DNA of 24,575 nt from a virus: IMG/VR virus record IMGVR_UViG_3300025889_000901, positions 1-24,575 of that record, one strand, 5' to 3'. The translations under genes and the position numbers were made by a program. Each line of letters begins with the position of its first letter. The stretch's first letter is position 1. Shown here in pieces: positions 2,882-19,482 of the stretch. The notes under the pieces are model-generated. The model was not told the origin of the DNA and searched no databases. It saw only the letters and a list, made by a program, of their open reading frames with translations.

Positions 2882-5065
2882 ATGCTTACGAAAATTAAGT
2901 TTGCTCCAGGAATAGACAAACAAGACACTGCTGTTGGAGCAGAAGGTCGTTGGGTTGATTCAGACAATGTAAGATTTAGATATGGACTACCAGAAAAAGT
3001 TGGTGGTTGGCAATCATTACTTACAGATACTTTAGTAGGTGTAGCTAGAAAACAACACGCATTTGTTGACAAAGATGGTAATAGATATGTAGCCATTGGT
3101 ACAGACAAATTTTTAATTATATATTTTGAAGGACAATTTTTTGATGTAAGTCCACTTGCAACAGCAATTTCTGGTGCAACTTTTACTTTTAACGCTACAA
3201 CAACAGTAACTTTAACAACCTCTGCGGCACACAACATAAGTGTTGGAGATATTATTCGTTTAACAGGAACAACTTTACCAGGTGGTACAACAGGAGTAAC
3301 TACAGCTACTTTTGATGACACTAACTTTCAAGTTTTATCTGTGCCTACATCTACAACTTTAACAATTCAAGCAGCGACAGCTGGTTCAACTTCTTCAGGC
3401 GGATCCGTAACTATTAATCCTTTTGAAGTAGTGGGTCCTGCAGCACAATCCTATGGCTATGGTTATGGTGTTGGTAATTATGGCGGTACAATTACAGGTG
3501 CAGCTCAAACAACTTTAGATGGTGGGTTGGCCGCGGATACAAATGGTAACAATGGTTCAGCAACACAAATTAGATTAGCATCTACTACAGGTTTTCCTGC
3601 AACAGGAGGAACCATTGCAGTAGGTAGTGAGTTAATAACATACACAGGTGTATCAGGCGTAGAGCTAACAGGTATTTCTAGAGCACAAAAAGGAACATCT
3701 TCAGCAATACATAGCACTGGAGCTACAGTTACAAACGCTACAGAATTTACAGGATGGGGAGATGCAGTTGATGCAGGAACTATTACACTTGAACCAGGCC
3801 TTTGGTCATTAAGTAATTTTGGTGATGTATTAGTTGCAACAATTGCAAATGGTAAAACTTTTACTTGGGATTCTTCTATTGCAGCAAGATTATCTACACG
3901 TGCTTCTACAACTACATCAGGATTTCAAACTACAAATAATCCTACAGCAACAAGAACAACTTTAATTTCACCAACAACAAGACACTTAATTCATTTTGGA
4001 ACTGAAACAACAATAGGTACACCCTCTACACAAGATGATATGTTTGTAAGATTTTCTGAAGATGAAAATATAAATGCATATACACCAGAAGCAACTAACA
4101 CAGCAGGGACACAAAGATTACAAGATGGTACAAAAATTATGGGAGCTTTGGTTGCAAAAGAAAATATTCTAGTGTGGACTGATAATGCATTGTATACAAT
4201 GAAATTTGTTGGTGCTCCTTTTACATTTGGCTTTGAACAAGTAGGTACTAACTGTGGATTAATAGGTAAGAATGCAGCGATAGAAATTGATGGTGTAGCT
4301 TACTGGATGGGTAATAATGGTTTCTTCTCGTTTGATGGTACTGTTAACACATTACCTTGTTCTGTTGAAGATTATGTTTACGATGATGTGGATACTACAA
4401 AAGGTCAACAAGTAAACGCTGGTATTAATAATCTATTTACAGAAGTTATTTGGTGGTATCCAACAGCAGGGTCTGAATTTAATAATAGATATGTAGTATT
4501 TAATTATGGAGAAACAGGACAAAATACTCCAATGGGTAATTGGTACACAGGTACTAATACTAATTCTATTAGAACAACTTGGATTGATTCACTAGTATAT
4601 CCTAGACCTTATGCAACTGCATTTAATAGTTCTAACACAGGAACTTTTCCTGTTATAAGTGGTGAAACAGGATTAGGTCAAAGCGTATTGTTTGAACACG
4701 AATCAGGAACCGATCAAGTAAATCCGGATGGTAGTGTAACTGCATTAACATCTTTTATACAATCCTTTAGTTTTTCATTACAAAAAGATCAAGCAGAAGT
4801 ATTTTTAGCCCTTAGAAGATTCTTACCTAACTTTAAAGTATTAACAGGTAACAACCAAATAACATTATCTATAAAAGATTTTCCATCGCAAGATGATATA
4901 GAAACAGCTTTAAGTCCTTTTATTATTACTTCTTCTACTTTAAAAGTTGACACTAGAGCAAGAGGACGATATGCAAATATAAAGATAGAAAATACTGGTG
5001 TAGGTGAGTCTTGGAGATTTGGTACATTCCAAGTAGATATACAACCAGATGGAAGGAGAGGCTAA
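2882..5065 (+). CDS. P22 gp10-like phage stabilisation / tail protein
   Basis: At 727 residues this is the main tail-structural gene in the window. The N-terminus (APGIDKQDTAVGAEGRWVD, then a VRFRYGLPEKVGGW segment) matches the phage stabilisation protein family related to P22 gp10, which closes the portal channel after DNA packaging. Two inserted beta modules are visible: about residues 95-180 (AHNISVGDIIRLTG, FQVLSVPTSTTLTI), a small barrel common in phage virion proteins, and about 225-290 (IRLASTTGFPATGG, ELITYTG, ISRAQKGTSSAIHSTGA), a widespread viral surface module. The core resumes with WTDNALYTMKFVG, AYWMGNNGFFSFDG and SVEDYVYDDV. AGGAG (2871-2875) overlaps the previous stop at good spacing. 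The stop overlaps the next ATG (TAATG). Assignment to the stabilisation family is from sequence memory, not a search. Confidence 0.75.
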   Translation: MLTKIKFAPGIDKQDTAVGAEGRWVDSDNVRFRYGLPEKVGGWQSLLTDTLVGVARKQHAFVDKDGNRYVAIGTDKFLIIYFEGQFFDVSPLATAISGATFTFNATTTVTLTTSAAHNISVGDIIRLTGTTLPGGTTGVTTATFDDTNFQVLSVPTSTTLTIQAATAGSTSSGGSVTINPFEVVGPAAQSYGYGYGVGNYGGTITGAAQTTLDGGLAADTNGNNGSATQIRLASTTGFPATGGTIAVGSELITYTGVSGVELTGISRAQKGTSSAIHSTGATVTNATEFTGWGDAVDAGTITLEPGLWSLSNFGDVLVATIANGKTFTWDSSIAARLSTRASTTTSGFQTTNNPTATRTTLISPTTRHLIHFGTETTIGTPSTQDDMFVRFSEDENINAYTPEATNTAGTQRLQDGTKIMGALVAKENILVWTDNALYTMKFVGAPFTFGFEQVGTNCGLIGKNAAIEIDGVAYWMGNNGFFSFDGTVNTLPCSVEDYVYDDVDTTKGQQVNAGINNLFTEVIWWYPTAGSEFNNRYVVFNYGETGQNTPMGNWYTGTNTNSIRTTWIDSLVYPRPYATAFNSSNTGTFPVISGETGLGQSVLFEHESGTDQVNPDGSVTALTSFIQSFSFSLQKDQAEVFLALRRFLPNFKVLTGNNQITLSIKDFPSQDDIETALSPFIITSSTLKVDTRARGRYANIKIENTGVGESWRFGTFQVDIQPDGRRG

Positions 5066-12300: not shown

Positions 12301-13344
12301 GCCGTGACTTCTGGTAGAGCAGACAAAGATGGTATTATGGATGATTTTATTTTAGGTTTAATTGATTCTACAAAAGAAATTGGTCAACCTTTTATATCAG
12401 AATCTATTTGGACAGAAGCTTTACAAGACATAGCACCGATACTTGGTAGAGGTGGTGTAGATGCATCTGGTAGAGAAATATATAATAAAGATCCTGCTAT
12501 TGATCCTATTGGTAGTAAGATTATGAAATCAGTTGCACATTTAGTTGAAGCACAAGCTCCTCTTAACTGGAGACAGCTTGGTAGATTAGGTTTAGCTATA
12601 AGACCTATTGATAGTTTAGGAAGATATGATGATCGTGGTAATGAATATGAATTAGGAAATGAATTACTTGGTATTGCAGGAATGCGTAGAGTTAAAGTAG
12701 ATCCAAGAAAATCTTTAAATTATAAAATTACAAATTTTGTCGATGGTGTTAGAGATTCTAGAAATGTATTTACAAGACAAACTTTAAAAGGTGGTGTAGT
12801 TACTCCAGAAGAAATAATTGATGCCTACATAGATTCTAACAAAGCTTTATATGAAATTAATAGAAGAATGTTTTTAGATATAGATGCTGCAAAAACATTA
12901 GGAATGGGTGAAGATGCTATTGCACAAAATATGGTAAACAGAGGTCAAAGAAGAGCTTTTGGATTTTTAAATGAAGGATTGTTTAGACCTTATTTCCCAT
13001 CAAGAGATGTTGCAGCGTTGTTTGAAAAAAGAGCTTTAGAAATAGGAGCACCAAATGCTTTTGAACAAGCATCAGATGTAATATCAAGAATACAAGAAGT
13101 TTTATCAGAAGTACCTTTAAATGCAGATGTATTTCCTGACATAAAAAATCCTTTTAGTAATTTACCAGAACCTACACTAGGTCCTGCAGCGTCATTACCT
13201 GGCCTACCTCCACTACCAAATACAGCGCTTGTAAACAATGCACAGTTTGGTAATATTGATCCTGTAAGTAGATTAACACTAGCAGAAGAGACTTACTTAA
13301 GTCCACTAGAACAATCTTACAGAAAAAAACAAAGAACAACATAA
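9316..13344 (+). CDS. Large internal virion (DNA-ejection) protein
   Basis: The largest gene in the window, 1342 residues. The N-terminus has a Gly/Ala-rich hydrophobic region (residues 10-45) and another near 75-100 (IVNIGIPGGLAFKIGSGL). The middle is long, charged and helical. Around residue 675 TILAPFTHARNFISAAAFAA, and near 920 MAATTAALPLGTVAMMQTL, look membrane-active. The C-terminal tail (about 1285-1310) is Pro-rich. No lytic transglycosylase or protease motif was recognised. Size, composition and location just before the lysis genes are those of the giant ejection protein of podoviruses (T7 gp16-like in role, not evidently in sequence). AGGAG (9307-9311) precedes the ATG, and the stop overlaps the holin-candidate ATG. 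Confidence 0.65.
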   Translation: MAEANKGKDYGLGTSILAGVGSGVFKIFEGAATLGATLLDLGVDKNRAEAIEEYFDKINPFDEAAEATAAGKITELIVNIGIPGGLAFKIGSGLTKATLRAKEAGTYLSRNEKLKRYGKGALAGGAAEAAFVGDVEDAGTFGDFLGGPTEVDRESDTPQAELLNRLKFGAEGGLFTLGIGAGARGISKLRNQAGTGKAITDPMSRWIDKWISRPLRARGPAAQEGFEAEKAYQGLLGRDTNVAENAMIKIDTITNRILKNFKKSGNKVDEGKRKELLKKMNDILTDGNKLNPNIDDAGKVTLNSIDETKVVDFSNDLINNYKADPKDVAELVQNFNSMRGTWSELFTLMGSRLTPSALDDFQKVIPKAINDVLDRGYEVFKNNPMSVADNYGPSSKVINVAVKEFIDEAAKKGVTLSEDVAKGMVNEVWNNAKLPRGVMMNEGTKSGVVRLNSVPNFFLKSEAAELLSKKGDFVKTSGGKNLSDLTGVGQKVIKKLLGKTENPMSTIVEGTNALSIQVRLNQYLDDLVKQSNVLKKNWDAWDAGGRIGPEPRVPFLVDDPGEAKKYFGKDALLNRDFEIIAPAEGGSIRSTKLGRFEDIDAKIKPVDDIEKARLEELGIVDELTNPIAGKYALSDYAQALKEVDNLKKKDLPATLYQNLVLYPKATSQMAKTILAPFTHARNFISAAAFAAANGFVPFGNTKDVKRAFDALQLKGFRKDNEFYQELLELGVVNSQVQVRQVMDLMEDVKFGEVLNKVGADYNGFNTFMKGLKKTQKFAQDAYTAEDDFWKIFTYLGEQSRLKNAYQAKGLQLGDDIVEVITDAEGRKFDRKIGVFNDEYLKKQSAKLVKNNIPNYAFVSEFIKGLRKLPVGNFVAFPAEIMRTGTNIVSTALDEIFFTARINGKEVNPLRARGLQRLTGMAATTAALPLGTVAMMQTLNDVSDEELEAMRRYVPEWSKNSVLVPFKDKEGKLSYVDFSHLNAYDTLTRPIQTVVNAVTSGRADKDGIMDDFILGLIDSTKEIGQPFISESIWTEALQDIAPILGRGGVDASGREIYNKDPAIDPIGSKIMKSVAHLVEAQAPLNWRQLGRLGLAIRPIDSLGRYDDRGNEYELGNELLGIAGMRRVKVDPRKSLNYKITNFVDGVRDSRNVFTRQTLKGGVVTPEEIIDAYIDSNKALYEINRRMFLDIDAAKTLGMGEDAIAQNMVNRGQRRAFGFLNEGLFRPYFPSRDVAALFEKRALEIGAPNAFEQASDVISRIQEVLSEVPLNADVFPDIKNPFSNLPEPTLGPAASLPGLPPLPNTALVNNAQFGNIDPVSRLTLAEETYLSPLEQSYRKKQRTT

Positions 13345-13538
13345 TGAGTATTAAACCAAAGACAACAAGAGAACATATTTTATCCCTTTACGGCCATATA
13401 TCTGGCGTTAAGAAAAATTTATCACACGTACACCAAGACGTAGAAAAATTGGGCGGTAAGATAGACAAGTTCTATTGGGTTCTTTTGACTGTTGCGGGAA
13501 CAGCAGTCGTCTTTGTGTTAGAAAGGATGATTAACTAA
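13344..13538 (+). CDS. Small single-helix membrane protein, holin candidate
   Basis: A 64-residue protein with a charged amphipathic N-terminal part (residues 8-42, ISGVKKNLSHVHQDVEKLGG), one transmembrane helix (about 43-59, FYWVLLTVAGTAVVFVL) and a four-residue tail. This layout resembles XhlA-type small holins or holin partners: a cytosolic coiled coil plus one C-terminal membrane helix. The stop overlaps the endolysin ATG (TAATG), making a lysis cassette. Together with the endolysin it is slightly richer in G/C than the flanking virion gene. A holin role is inferred from topology and neighbour; no family is certain. Confidence 0.6.
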   Translation: MSIKPKTTREHILSLYGHISGVKKNLSHVHQDVEKLGGKIDKFYWVLLTVAGTAVVFVLERMIN

Positions 13539-14017
13539 TGCAGCTTTCACGTAATTTCAGTCTTCAAGAGCTTATCAAATCCGACACAGCTATCAGGCAG
13601 GGTATTGATAACAATCCTAACTCTGATCAAATAGAAAAATTAAAATTACTTTGCGAAAATATATTACAACCCGTAAGAGATCACTTCGGCAGAGTTAAAA
13701 TTACTAGCGGATTTCGTAGTCCAAAATTGTGTCTAGCCATTGGTAGCTCAGCAGATTCACAGCACGCAAAAGCAGAAGCAGCAGACTTTGAATGTTTAGA
13801 CGTTGACAACGCAGAGCTTGCAGATTGGATACACCAAGAGCTTACTTATGACCAGCTCATCTTAGAATTTTACACACCCGGCGAACCTAACTCGGGATGG
13901 ATACATTGTAGCTGGATCGCGGATACTCCAAGAGCTAGTTTTTTACACGCATATAGAGAAGAGGGTCGTACAAAATACAAACCCGTACTTGGCAAAGCCA
14001 CAGAAATATTTAAGTAG
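13538..14017 (+). CDS. Peptidase M15 family endolysin
   Basis: A 159-residue zinc peptidase of the M15A type (PF08291-like), expected to cut the peptide stems of peptidoglycan at the end of infection. The motif ITSGFRSPKL (56-64) is followed by SQHAKAEAADFE, giving zinc ligands H76 and D83, and by SGWIHCSW, giving the third ligand H123. E110 in DQLILEF is in the region where the family carries its second conserved acid. There is no signal peptide, so export would need the adjacent holin candidate. AAGGA upstream and a TAATG overlap with the holin ORF support the start. Length is normal for a single-domain phage M15 enzyme. This is one of the most secure calls in the window. Confidence 0.88.
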   Translation: MQLSRNFSLQELIKSDTAIRQGIDNNPNSDQIEKLKLLCENILQPVRDHFGRVKITSGFRSPKLCLAIGSSADSQHAKAEAADFECLDVDNAELADWIHQELTYDQLILEFYTPGEPNSGWIHCSWIADTPRASFLHAYREEGRTKYKPVLGKATEIFK

Positions 14018-14022
14018 CCAAG

Positions 14023-14400
14023 ATGAAAAATAGTTTACTTGTCCACAAACATTTAATTATTCGTGCTGAAGCAAGTAAACCACCAACAGATGAAGATTGG
14101 TTAAAAGATTGGATGATGGGTTTTATAGAATCCATTGATATGAAAGTCTTTATGGGTCCTTATGTAAAGTATTGTAATATGCCTGGCAATCGAGGTATCA
14201 CAGCTGTTGCTATTATAGAAACATCACACATTGCTATGCATATTTGGGATGAACCAAAGCCTGCATTAATGCAGTTAGATGTTTATAGTTGTGGTGATTT
14301 TAATCCTACAGATATTTGTAATAAGATTATGAAAGACTTTGACATTCATAAAATAGAATACAAATACTTGAATCGCGAAACGGGTTTAGTCGATTTATAA
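14023..14400 (+). CDS. speD: SpeD-like pyruvoyl-dependent decarboxylase (AdoMetDC family)
   Basis: A 125-residue protein matching the small bacterial S-adenosylmethionine decarboxylase proenzyme family, whose chain self-cleaves before a Ser to form a pyruvoyl cofactor. KHLIIRAE (9-16) fits the first strand, and TSHIAMHIWDE (67-77) fits the processing site, with S68 the candidate pyruvoyl Ser and H73 behind it. LDVYSCGDFNP (85-95) carries C90, the conserved catalytic Cys. The residue before S68 is Thr, where characterised SpeD proteins usually have Glu. In polyamine synthesis the enzyme makes the aminopropyl donor for spermidine, but relatives can decarboxylate ornithine or arginine instead, so the substrate is open. 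It follows the endolysin by 5 nt and ends the left plus-strand arm. No other polyamine gene is in the window. Confidence 0.8.
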   Translation: MKNSLLVHKHLIIRAEASKPPTDEDWLKDWMMGFIESIDMKVFMGPYVKYCNMPGNRGITAVAIIETSHIAMHIWDEPKPALMQLDVYSCGDFNPTDICNKIMKDFDIHKIEYKYLNRETGLVDL

Positions 14401-14439: not shown

Positions 14440-14658
14440 CTATTGTGGTGGTTCGTCGTTACAAATATAACCAATAACTTGTTTACCTTTATATTCGTGA
14501 TAGACGTGATTAGAAAATAACTTTCTTTTCTTTTGTTTTAAAACTTTTACATTATAATGAAACCAACTGTCGCAAGGTTGATTAATTTCAAAAGGCGTAG
14601 CTATTTCAACATCACCTAATGATGTTAAATACAATAAGGTGATCACAATGGGTTTCAA
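14440..14658 (-). CDS. Small, possibly exported phage protein
   Basis: A 72-residue protein on the minus strand with a hydrophobic start (MKPIVITLLYLTSLG) that could be a signal or anchor segment, though it is short and lacks a clear cleavage site. Conserved-looking features are PFEINQPCDSWFHYNV (C29), HEYKGKQVIGYICND (C66) and a basic stretch at 40-48. The two cysteines could form a disulphide if the protein reaches the periplasm. I have seen similar proteins in marine phage genomes without assigned function. Its ATG overlaps the stop of the SNF2-like helicase by 4 nt, so the two are expressed together from the divergent promoter near 16120. Confidence 0.65.
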   Translation of the reverse strand: MKPIVITLLYLTSLGDVEIATPFEINQPCDSWFHYNVKVLKQKKRKLFSNHVYHEYKGKQVIGYICNDEPPQ

Positions 14659-16088
14659 ATCCAGTCTCTTAGTTCTTCACCCATAACTTCTGTGGCAATA
14701 TTAATTTTTTTACGTAGAGCTTTTCTAATCTTTTCATCTATAGTTTTTGGTGCTATAAGATCTATGTATGTTACCGACTTCTTTTGACCTATTCTGTGTG
14801 CTCTGTCTTCTGACTGTAGTCTTTTTTCTAAATCATATCCATTAGAATAGTAAATCATATTATTAGCAGCAGTTAATGTAATACCATATCCACCAGTCTG
14901 TGGATTACCTACAAAGAATCTAGCTTTAGAGTTTGGGTCTTGAAACTTCTCTATATTTTTTTGCCTATGTTCTGCCTCAATTGCGCCATAGTATTGTACT
15001 ATGGAGTCTTCACCGTATTTTTTAGATACAGCCTTTACTATCTGTTTAATATCATAAACATAATTAGCCCAAATAATAACTTTACCTTCTACTTCTTCTA
15101 ATAAATCTAACAATGATGTCATACGATTGTTTTTTATTTCTGTAATAGTATCATCATCATTTTTTAAATGACCACAAGTTATCTGATGTAGACGCATAAG
15201 TTGTGTTAGTACGTGAGGCGCTGTTGCTAGCTTACCTTTTAATTGAGCGAGGGCCGCGGATTTCATCGTAGCATATATTTGTTTTTGTTCATCTGTAAGT
15301 TCTACTTCTCTTTGTACATAAGTTTTAGGTGGTAGATCTAAACAATCTTCCTTTAAAACACGATAAGAAAAGTCTTTTAATTTGTCTGATAATTCACCCA
15401 ATCTTTTATATCCTCCTACAATCTGTACTCTACGTCCACCAAAATTTCTATCTAGCATAGTAGCATATCTATTTCTAAACGCATAGTAACTATCAAAGCC
15501 AAGTAAAAAACTATCAAGAAATCCACATTGTGTGTATAAATCTAGTGGTGATTTAGTTACCGGAGAACCTGTGAGTATTCTTCTGTATTGTGCAAGCAAA
15601 CCTAAAGATAATATAGCTTTAGTTCTTTTTGCTGTTGGAGTTTTTATAGTTGTAGATTCATCAATAGCCATTAATGTTTTGTGGCAACTAAGAAACTTTG
15701 TGGCAAATTGTAGGCCTTTCTTTGTTGAAAATGATTCTACATTCATAACAAGAATGTGAAGATCTAAGTCTACTTTGAATAATTGTTGATACTCTTTTTC
15801 TTTTGTTTTAGATGTTGTAGCCGTCCATAATACAGATTTATGATCTATATGATTAGCTAAATGAGTTGGTATTTCTCCAGAAAACCAGTTTCTATATACA
15901 CCTTTTGGTGCTATAATTAGCGCCGCATTTATTTTACCTTTATCATAAAGCATAGCTATATTATCTACTAATACTTTTGATTTACCCGTACCCATTTCCA
16001 TAAAGTACGCATACTCTTTTTTATCCCACGATTTTTCTAATGCAGTCAATTGATGTGCATAAGGCTTAGTCTTAAATTTATAGTTCAT
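14655..16088 (-). CDS. Compact SNF2-family (SF2) helicase
   Basis: A superfamily 2 ATPase of 477 residues from the ATG at 16088. A TTG nine codons upstream (16115) would also be in frame but lies inside the promoter, so ATG is preferred. Motif I is MGTGKSK (Lys36), motif II is IDEST (D143, E144), motif III is LTGSPV, motifs V and VI are GGYGITLTAANN and SEDRAHRIGQ (arginines 429 and 432). YAHQLTAL near the start acts as the Q-motif-like element. SNF2 enzymes translocate on dsDNA and strip or remodel bound proteins or branched structures; marine phages often carry such short forms. It heads a two-gene minus-strand unit opposite the replication genes and may help replication, recombination or displacement of host proteins. 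The ribosome site is weak. Confidence 0.85.
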   Translation of the reverse strand: MNYKFKTKPYAHQLTALEKSWDKKEYAYFMEMGTGKSKVLVDNIAMLYDKGKINAALIIAPKGVYRNWFSGEIPTHLANHIDHKSVLWTATTSKTKEKEYQQLFKVDLDLHILVMNVESFSTKKGLQFATKFLSCHKTLMAIDESTTIKTPTAKRTKAILSLGLLAQYRRILTGSPVTKSPLDLYTQCGFLDSFLLGFDSYYAFRNRYATMLDRNFGGRRVQIVGGYKRLGELSDKLKDFSYRVLKEDCLDLPPKTYVQREVELTDEQKQIYATMKSAALAQLKGKLATAPHVLTQLMRLHQITCGHLKNDDDTITEIKNNRMTSLLDLLEEVEGKVIIWANYVYDIKQIVKAVSKKYGEDSIVQYYGAIEAEHRQKNIEKFQDPNSKARFFVGNPQTGGYGITLTAANNMIYYSNGYDLEKRLQSEDRAHRIGQKKSVTYIDLIAPKTIDEKIRKALRKKINIATEVMGEELRDWI

Positions 16089-16108
16089 AATTTTTTTATT
16101 CTTTCTAG

Positions 16109-16145
16109 TTGACAATTATATAAACACTACTATATAAGATGTCAA
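16109..16145. promoter_or_regulatory. Overlapping divergent promoter pair with dyad symmetry
   Basis: On the plus strand TTGACA (16109-16114) is followed by TATATA (16131-16136, spacing 16) or TATAAG (16133-16138, spacing 18). On the minus strand a second perfect TTGACA (complement of 16140-16145) is followed by TATATA (complement of 16117-16122, spacing 17), or TATAAT at spacing 19. Each -10 lies in the other promoter's spacer. The outer TTGACA/TGTCAA and the inner TTATATA/TATATAA repeats make a 37-bp imperfect palindrome. The plus start would be near 16144, giving a leader of about 12 nt. The minus start would be near 16110, giving a leader of about 22 nt. Simultaneous occupancy by two polymerases looks impossible. 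Confidence 0.7.
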
Positions 16146-17940: not shown

Positions 17941-17961
17941 ACAAAGAAATGATAAGTGATA

Positions 17962-19482
17962 ATGAACAAATTCAAAAATATATTTAACGGATTAACTATA
18001 GCATATGGACAATACCAACCTGGTGAACGTGGTGAAAGCGGAAAACAAAAAGGAAAAGCTTTTATTGTACGTGGTGCCGTTACAGACGAACTCTGGAAAA
18101 ACCATCTTGAAGGAAAAGGAGCCGCACTCGGAATTATCCCTATTACAGAAGATAACGATTGTCGCTGGGGGTGCATTGATATTGACGAGTATAATTTCAA
18201 TCACGCTAGCCTCATTCAAAGCATACGAAATCTTAACCTCCCCTTAATTGTTTGCCGTTCTAAATCAGGCGGAGCGCACGTATTTTTATTTACTAAAGAA
18301 AACATTCCTGCATCATTGATGCAATCAAAATTAAAAGAGATGGCCATCATACTTGGTTATGAAGGTTCAGAAATATTTCCCAAACAAACAGAAATTCTAG
18401 TGGATCGTGGGGACACTGGGAACTTTTTAAACTTACCCTACTACAATGATATGAAAGGCTTGCGCTATGCTATCAACGATAATGGCTCCGGTTGTACACT
18501 TGAAGAATTTTATCAGCTCTATGATAAGTTTTCTTTGCGAAAAGATCAGGTGGAACAAATTAAAACGGAAAAGAAAAAAATAGAAGAAGCATTTCCTGGA
18601 GGTCCACCTTGTTTAAATAAACTTGCATCAACAGGTTTTGGTGAGGGTTCCAGGAATAATGCATTGTTTAATATCGCAGTTTATTACAAACAATCTAATC
18701 CTGATACTTGGGAAGATGAGATTGTAAAAGCTAATATGAAATTTATGGAACCACCATTAAGTAATAGTGAGGTTCAACAATTAATTAAATCTGTAAATAG
18801 AAAAGGTTATGACAAGTATAGATGTAAAGATGCACCTATTAATGCAGTATGTCAGTCTGGGTTATGTAGAACAAAAAGATTTGGTGTAGGTTTTGGTGAA
18901 GAAGAAATGCCTGTACTTGGAAGTCTTACAAAATATTCATCATCACCACCACAATGGTTTTTAGATGTAGATAAGAAGAGAATAGAATTAAAATCAGAAC
19001 AACTTTACAGTCCAAATTTATTTGCACTAGCGTGTTTAGATCAAGCAAATTTAATTGTACCTATACCTAAACCAAAAGATTGGAAACAACATTTTTTAAA
19101 ACCAATGATGCAAGGACTACAAGAAGTAGAACCTTTAGAGTCTTTAAATCCTATCAATGAACTTACAGGACTATTACAAGATTGGACTACTAACAGACAA
19201 TCAGCAAGAACGATTGATGATGTATTTAATAAATTACCTTTTACTGATGAGAAAAGAGAGTTTACATATTTTAGAATGGAAGACTTTTACAATTTCTGTA
19301 AACGAAATCATTGGGAAAAAGATAAGAATCAAACAGGTAACTTAATTAAAAGACTCGATGAGTTTGTAGGAGAAGAAAGAGTACGTATTAAAAAGCAACA
19401 ACCTAGACTAATTAAAATAAAAACAATGAAACAATCAGAGGCCGCAGTATCTAAAACACCATATCAAATAGAAAACTTTTAA
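17962..19482 (+). CDS. DNA primase, archaeo-eukaryotic (AEP/TOTE-like) type
   Basis: From the ATG at 17962 the protein has 506 residues; a GTG at 17956 in frame would add two. The catalytic domain (about 1-195) has CRWGCIDIDEY with D73 and D75 as metal ligands, SKSGGAHVFLF with H106 as the second motif, and GNFLNLPYYN as the third, the standard triad of AEP primases. A Lys-rich linker (about 200-210) leads to a helical part (RNNALFNIAVYYK, ending NRKGYDKYRC) like the PriCT domain, with cysteines at 288, 297 and 302 that may bind zinc. The rest is helical and of unknown role. It should make primers for the adjacent polymerase A. The two halves use different arginine codons (see findings). The stop overlaps the next ATG. 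Confidence 0.8.
   Translation: MNKFKNIFNGLTIAYGQYQPGERGESGKQKGKAFIVRGAVTDELWKNHLEGKGAALGIIPITEDNDCRWGCIDIDEYNFNHASLIQSIRNLNLPLIVCRSKSGGAHVFLFTKENIPASLMQSKLKEMAIILGYEGSEIFPKQTEILVDRGDTGNFLNLPYYNDMKGLRYAINDNGSGCTLEEFYQLYDKFSLRKDQVEQIKTEKKKIEEAFPGGPPCLNKLASTGFGEGSRNNALFNIAVYYKQSNPDTWEDEIVKANMKFMEPPLSNSEVQQLIKSVNRKGYDKYRCKDAPINAVCQSGLCRTKRFGVGFGEEEMPVLGSLTKYSSSPPQWFLDVDKKRIELKSEQLYSPNLFALACLDQANLIVPIPKPKDWKQHFLKPMMQGLQEVEPLESLNPINELTGLLQDWTTNRQSARTIDDVFNKLPFTDEKREFTYFRMEDFYNFCKRNHWEKDKNQTGNLIKRLDEFVGEERVRIKKQQPRLIKIKTMKQSEAAVSKTPYQIENF

Follow-up and report, generated by a model that had tools for sequence, protein, structure and literature searches.

Small phage proteins of the SpeD family that decarboxylate basic amino acids are already in print (PMC9992855, PMC10407285; both cited here from the available parts of their texts). 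The purified phage enzyme that can be placed in our alignment is the SpeD homologue of pelagiphage HTVC201P. According to PMC9992855, it did not restore spermidine in E. coli lacking speD, and the purified enzyme decarboxylates L-arginine (Km 0.87 mM, kcat 0.25 per second) and is inactive on L-ornithine and L-lysine. The text of that paper gives this protein as AHX71538, while its table and the phage record give AXH71538. BAR31446, a homologue from an uncultured marine phage, was insoluble, but agmatine in E. coli rose threefold with it. Ornithine activity was seen for five homologues from freshwater phages; arginine was also used by one of them, with a trace in another. The tree in PMC9992855 contains three clades: S-adenosylmethionine decarboxylases (AdoMetDC), arginine enzymes, and ornithine enzymes together with the AdoMetDC-active protein of phage phiN3. 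Host enzymes were proposed to convert agmatine to putrescine.

PMC10407285 describes SpeDA (pyruvoyl arginine decarboxylase) and SpeDC (pyruvoyl ornithine decarboxylase) enzymes from bacteria and archaea. It groups HTVC201P and SpeDC in a single clade, where arginine activity may have emerged for a fourth time, represented by one phage, and names four diagnostic residues of SpeDC (Gln, Thr, Phe and Tyr, without positions in the available text). Its criterion in the hunt for substrate-shifted SpeDs was a SpeD without SpeE, or two SpeDs. Published SpeDC genes occur in clusters with speD and speE, among others. A literature search on pelagiphages and adenosylmethionine decarboxylase found these two papers only, among the matches listed.

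Here we describe a related gene in one virus record of 24,575 bases, possibly a fragment; we call this whole stretch the window. Our additions are the extent to which a threonine at the processing site is shared, relatives in bacteria whose gene neighbours are informative, and a pair of related phages in which the insertion site is filled in one and empty in the other. The first-pass annotation had reported an open reading frame at 14023-14400 with an E-T-S-H motif and residues S68, H73 and C90, located after the lysis genes. The reading frame list and the alignment agree with this, and a 64-residue reading frame and an M15 endolysin lie directly upstream. Its remark that no spermidine synthase is nearby also holds within the 24,575-base window, which may be a fragment: PF01564 had 0 matches. 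The features are listed below; rows are those of the alignment behind our 88-row tree, and T-S-H refers to the residues at the processing site.

13344 to 13538, plus strand: 64-residue open reading frame with a single hydrophobic segment close to the C terminus, judged by eye; only its position is holin-like
13538 to 14017, plus strand: M15-family endolysin directly upstream of the SpeD homologue (Peptidase_M15_3, 65 bits; PHROG endolysin, 137.6 bits)
14023 to 14400, plus strand: T-S-H type SpeD homologue, 125 residues, ATG start (AdoMet_dc match, model, alignment)
14062 to 14064, plus strand: codon of Arg14; R in 79 of 79 T-S-H rows, a count partly forced because the position lies inside a search pattern, and D, E, N or K in the 9 AdoMetDC-type rows
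14218 to 14229, plus strand: processing motif E66-T67-S68-H69 (alignment); Ser68 is the predicted pyruvoyl precursor and Thr67-Ser68 the predicted cut
14239 to 14241, plus strand: His73, equivalent by alignment to T. maritima H68 (role from the available text of PMC10407285)
14248 to 14250, plus strand: Asp76; Pro (of HTWPE) in 7 of 9 AdoMetDC-type rows
14272 to 14274, plus strand: Gln84, in 78 of 79 T-S-H rows, again partly forced by a search pattern, and 0 of 9 AdoMetDC-type rows
14290 to 14292, plus strand: Cys90, equivalent by alignment to T. maritima C83 (role from the available text of PMC10407285)
14440 to 14658, minus strand: small open reading frame, convergent with the SpeD homologue (reading frame list, PHROGs, locus comparison)
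14655 to 16115, minus strand: SNF2/phage DNA helicase, convergent (Pfam, PHROGs); a recurrent downstream neighbour

In a profile search, the protein matched Pfam AdoMet_dc (PF02675) with 59.9 bits against a cut-off of 25 (E 3.5e-16), and a PHROGs search matched it to phrog_3125, S-adenosylmethionine decarboxylase, with 66 bits. The gene is under purifying selection: the median dN/dS was 0.064 and the maximum 0.17 in the 69 of 78 comparisons to related loci that had unsaturated dS. Because of this E value and this median dN/dS, we regard the match as more than chance. An AlphaFold2 model based on an alignment of 64 sequences had a mean pLDDT of 91.8. Its top solved Foldseek matches were T. maritima AdoMetDC structures (E 5.6e-06), which were also best in VIA-align (Z 13.5-13.6, 111-113 residues, rmsd 2.5-3.0); T. 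brucei AdoMetDC/prozyme structures were among the structure matches as well. The protein is predicted from this model to share the AdoMetDC fold of the Thermotoga enzyme. S68, H73 and C90 (T. maritima S63, H68 and C83) are invariant across the 64 aligned members, and the available text of PMC10407285 gives H68 a role in both processing and catalysis. The protein is a class 1b SpeD homologue that is predicted to keep the self-processing chemistry and has probably changed its substrate.

Inactive AdoMetDC paralogues act as activators in trypanosomes. By that precedent, the window protein could be a SpeD homologue without catalytic activity that the phage retains for a different task, for instance to bind or regulate an enzyme of the host. 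We consider this very improbable: every processing and catalytic residue is kept, and the HTVC201P protein is active, as the available text of PMC9992855 reports.

The threonine before the pyruvoyl serine had first been taken as a peculiarity of the window protein. We rejected this idea, as Thr is the rule in this position: it was found in 209 of 210 homologues (175 of 176 distinct proteins, the window copy counted) among the matches listed, in which distant homologues are under-sampled, the viral-contig homologues being the best 80 of 119 from one scan and the best 80 of at least 590 from another. Besides viral contigs, the 210 consist of 41 genome-record loci and 8 fetched phage records out of 12 pelagiphage-type records among the matches; two cyanophages were kept apart. 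Four of the genome loci (L108, L109, L113 and L129) look by eye like phage contigs binned with cells, and L126 is possibly another. The search patterns of two homologue scans held H8, H10, R14, A15 or Q84 to C90, which in part forces the conservation seen at these sites; residues 66-73 lie outside the patterns. The scan that yielded the window's subclade had six patterns, one of which was residues 72-79 and none of which covered 66-69. The sole non-Thr protein among the 210 homologues listed has Lys before the pyruvoyl serine (E-K-S-H, L046:67-441). Another homologue has T-S-N where others have T-S-H (L204:2992-3375). In the 9 AdoMetDC-type rows, the residue before Ser is Glu in eight and Asp in Sinorhizobium phage phiN3.

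Phylogenetic trees separated the two groups. In the 88-row tree, a branch with SH-aLRT 92 separated the 79 T-S-H rows from the 9 AdoMetDC-type rows; four of these 9 come from phages reported to be AdoMetDC-active (S-PM2, phiYS40, P2559S and phiN3), and several have very long branches. When the four longest AdoMetDC-type rows, phiN3 included, were left out, the T-S-H split in the resulting 84-row tree was 100/100, with five AdoMetDC-type rows remaining, of which S-PM2 alone is from a phage reported active. The window protein and the validated phage SpeDA of HTVC201P lie on the same T-S-H side in different subclades, the window protein within a 16-row set (99/97), although the 127 columns of the alignment limit the inner forks. 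HTVC201P serves as the validated SpeDA in these trees, which hold no validated bacterial SpeDA or SpeDC row.

The same trees bear on the possibility that the window protein is an ordinary AdoMetDC, which would raise spermidine together with the host's spermidine synthase. The family name in databases and the phage annotations say as much. Additionally, the phiN3 protein is AdoMetDC-active without Glu before Ser and without HTWPE, and it attaches, on a long branch, nearest to the T-S-H rows of the 88-row tree. Therefore, the residue before Ser is not an absolute marker. The Asp at the position of Asp76 is found in phiN3 too. The protein scored 53.8 against a cut-off of 75.65 with NCBIfam TIGR03330, the AdoMetDC equivalog, and this might be read as a sign of lost AdoMetDC activity. 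We rejected that reading. Three of the four AdoMetDC-active phage proteins (phiYS40, P2559S and phiN3) also miss this cut-off, at 70.3, 63.3 and 28.9, and that of S-PM2 exceeds it; thus, the low score is no argument against AdoMetDC. Nevertheless, in both trees the T-S-H rows stay on one side of the branch, and the HTVC201P protein, whose motif is the same, failed to restore spermidine in the experiments reported in the available text of PMC9992855. No clustering with confirmed AdoMetDCs carrying the same Thr was seen, the four active phage proteins having E, E, E and D before Ser. The earlier proposal that this enzyme may act on ornithine or arginine and may not make decarboxylated AdoMet gains by inference from the T-S-H side of the tree and from the arginine enzyme of HTVC201P, and is weakened by phiN3, the nearest to the T-S-H rows.

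T-S-H genes were also found in 41 genomes. SpeE was over its cut-off in 17 of these, reaching at least 90 bits in 16, and was absent at that score from 25, many of the 41 being metagenome-assembled or single-cell genomes by title, with completeness not given. With the five genomes that have phage-like contigs removed, no SpeE of at least 90 bits was present in 20 of 36. A second SpeD-like gene accompanied the T-S-H gene in 14 of the 16 genomes with SpeE of at least 90 bits (all except G001 and G022). Five of these second genes are canonical (G021, G024, G026, G028 and G040) and nine are weak, class 1a-like. In G021, G024, G026 and G028, the T-S-H SpeD, a canonical SpeD with AESH..HTWPE, and SpeE lie in a row on one strand. 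These genomes (three titled Deltaproteobacteria and one an uncultured proteobacterium) carry a near-identical T-S-H protein and are not independent. That a T-S-H copy stands beside a canonical SpeD in one cluster argues against an AdoMetDC function for the former. Nine small-genome gammaproteobacteria point the other way: there, SpeE has the T-S-H gene as its SpeD neighbour, in divergent orientation, as would fit an AdoMetDC. The other SpeD-like gene in these nine had a weak match to its model, at 32-52 bits (cut-off 255.8). In four of the nine genomes we read this class 1a-like protein, which has 244-258 residues and the motif K-E-S-H; the two that were scanned had 38 and 44 bits against 255.8. 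We infer that this protein may be the AdoMetDC of those gammaproteobacteria. Taken together, the HTVC201P result, the split in the trees and the coexistence with a canonical SpeD make AdoMet the less likely substrate, and we regard an ordinary AdoMetDC as rather unlikely.

Other gene families in these genomes did not discriminate between arginine and ornithine. Agmatinase (PF00491) was found in 18 of the 41 T-S-H genomes and agmatine deiminase (PF04371) in 23, with at least one of the two in 36. We rejected these agmatine-using families as an argument for arginine, for 13 of 14 control genomes have one too. The gammaproteobacterial family of G025 has the T-S-H gene in 23 of 25 genomes and PF04371 in 20 of 25; this near-universal pattern does not separate the two substrates either. 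PF02784 occurred in 31 of the 41 genomes, a count that is uninformative because this family also covers lysine-pathway decarboxylases. PF01916 showed no pattern in the 41 genomes (seven at E 0.001, six of them over the cut-off).

The surroundings of the gene were compared across 81 loci (L001-L080 and L129), of which 74 had at least 900 bases downstream and 66 at least 480 upstream. Of the 74, 57 have a convergent helicase no more than 1.5 kb downstream, and 17 had no helicase match in the available stretch. The M15 endolysin was directly upstream in 35 of 66, elsewhere in 19 and without a match in 12. The 64-residue reading frame at 13344-13538 had no Pfam match over cut-off and no PHROG match. 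The neighbours and their order are unchanged in a related phage, 023Pt_psg01 (85% identity for the helicase, 61% for the 64-residue reading frame and 50% for the M15 endolysin), whose record has no PF02675 match. Thus, the SpeD homologue is a cargo gene, present or absent at the junction between endolysin and helicase. No paper on 023Pt_psg01 was found in the literature by its name. In all six Pelagivirus records examined (HTVC201P, MedDCM-S35-C6, Eistla, HTVC109P, HTVC105P and HTVC021P), the gene is directly before ribonucleotide reductase alpha and one small gene after an exonuclease; therefore, the link to late genes is not general. Promoter-like matches near the window gene were no more frequent than by chance (11; mean 14.3), and a terminator scan gave 3 against a mean of 1.3, with none at the 3' end of the gene.

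Several side observations came from these loci. An Hsp20-family gene adjoins the SpeD homologue in L079 and L129, and lies 3 to 5 kb from it in HTVC103P (L086) and HTVC115P (L083). L129, titled Thermoplasmatales archaeon SG8-52-3, has a 78% identical SpeD homologue, the Hsp20-like gene and a helicase of the window type, and has the look of a phage contig that was binned into an archaeal genome. In HTVC109P (MH598805, L085:3004-3375), the annotated SpeD coding sequence begins at 3109, whereas family homology sets in at about 3004; the annotation thus seems to start some 35 codons too late. Elsewhere in the window, positions 17956-19482 encode a primase with an AEP-TOTE domain (PF22548) and PriCT_1. 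Positions 223-1592 hold two adjoining reading frames; the first is a 2OG-Fe(II) oxygenase (PF13759), and the second had no Pfam match, part of it matching HTVC033P DNA annotated as a putative ferrochelatase. Oxygenase and 'putative ferrochelatase' genes precede the tail-fibre gene in 023Pt_psg01, and correspond to those of the window by order only.

Based on these data, we propose that the window protein decarboxylates a basic amino acid by means of a pyruvoyl group, with arginine as the likely substrate, a reading that we favour with some reserve. The proenzyme would cut itself between Thr67 and Ser68, giving a beta chain of 67 residues and an alpha chain of 58, and Ser68 would become the pyruvoyl group at the N terminus of the alpha chain. 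This group would form a Schiff base with the alpha-amino group of the substrate, and CO2 would be released with the assistance of His73 and Cys90. The reaction is most likely the conversion of L-arginine to agmatine; otherwise, with a clearly smaller probability, it may be that of L-ornithine to putrescine. The most economical role would be that host enzymes turn the agmatine into putrescine and larger polyamines during infection, the host being SAR11 as judged from relatives.

We prefer arginine over ornithine because the one purified phage member in our alignment, HTVC201P, uses arginine in the account available from PMC9992855. The genome and sequence data presented here do not decide between the two. 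Direct synthesis of putrescine by a pyruvoyl-dependent L-ornithine decarboxylase of the SpeDC type is a lesser possibility, though one to be taken seriously. The available text of PMC10407285 places HTVC201P itself in the SpeDC clade and counts Thr among the four diagnostic residues. Likewise, the SpeD-SpeD-SpeE cluster of the four bacterial genomes is more like the settings it reports for ornithine decarboxylases than those for arginine decarboxylases, as published SpeDC genes cluster with speD and speE. The window subclade also differs from that of HTVC201P. Conversely, HTVC201P had no ornithine activity, and arginine and ornithine phage enzymes fall into separate clades in the tree of PMC9992855, to judge from its available text.

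Our preferred reading, an arginine decarboxylase, has to accommodate the fact that the window protein is only 41% identical to HTVC201P and belongs to another subclade with near-fixed differences. We also entertain a broader and more tentative idea. The T-S-H proteins might form a lineage of their own among substrate-shifted SpeDs, mostly marine, chromosomal in several bacterial groups and passed to SAR11 phages more than once, in which the window subclade would have a specificity unlike that of HTVC201P (ornithine, or a substrate unreported for the fold). We give this a minor share of our confidence.

The phage records examined label such genes S-adenosylmethionine decarboxylase, and surveys that rely on labels would count them as spermidine genes. 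If T-S-H proteins use arginine or ornithine, many contigs of marine phages and some marine bacteria are mislabelled in this respect, and the metabolism of infected cells would be affected at a different step. The bacterial relatives, some of which lie beside a canonical SpeD and SpeE, are a candidate source of the pelagiphage gene.

How does the window protein compare with the named systems? With class 1b AdoMetDC (T. maritima 1tlu/1tmi; phage S-PM2) it shares the predicted fold and the S/H/C residues. In contrast, the Glu before Ser is Thr in the window, the Pro of HTWPE is Asp, and the N-terminal position that is D, E, N or K in AdoMetDC-type rows is Arg14. Loss of a Pro (gamma) that is conserved in AdoMetDC is a criterion for SpeDA, and the two candidate sites for this Pro are both non-Pro in the window protein (N56 and D76). 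With SpeDC, as described in the available texts of PMC10407285 and PMC9992855, the window protein would, on our reading, have in common that it is a substrate-shifted class 1b SpeD homologue; for SpeDC, a diagnostic Thr is described in the central region. Set against the SpeDC signature, whose positions are not in that text, the window has Thr67 and Tyr88, and it has Ala63 and Met72 where HTVC201P has Gln and Phe. HTVC201P (AXH71538, L081:4010-4378) resembles the window protein in Pfam family, E-T-S-H motif, S/H/C residues, Arg14, Asp76 and Gln84. The near-fixed differences between the window's subclade (14 rows) and that of HTVC201P (9 rows) include A63/Q, M72/F and Y47/V, and the genes differ in place, that of HTVC201P being beside exonuclease and ribonucleotide reductase and that of the window beside the lysis genes. 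The closest annotated match among the matches listed is HTVC115P (QGZ18262), which is 52% identical. Its gene, unlike that of the window, follows DNA polymerase and a hypothetical gene, and its protein has both the E-T-S-H motif and the Met before the catalytic His that are found in the window protein.
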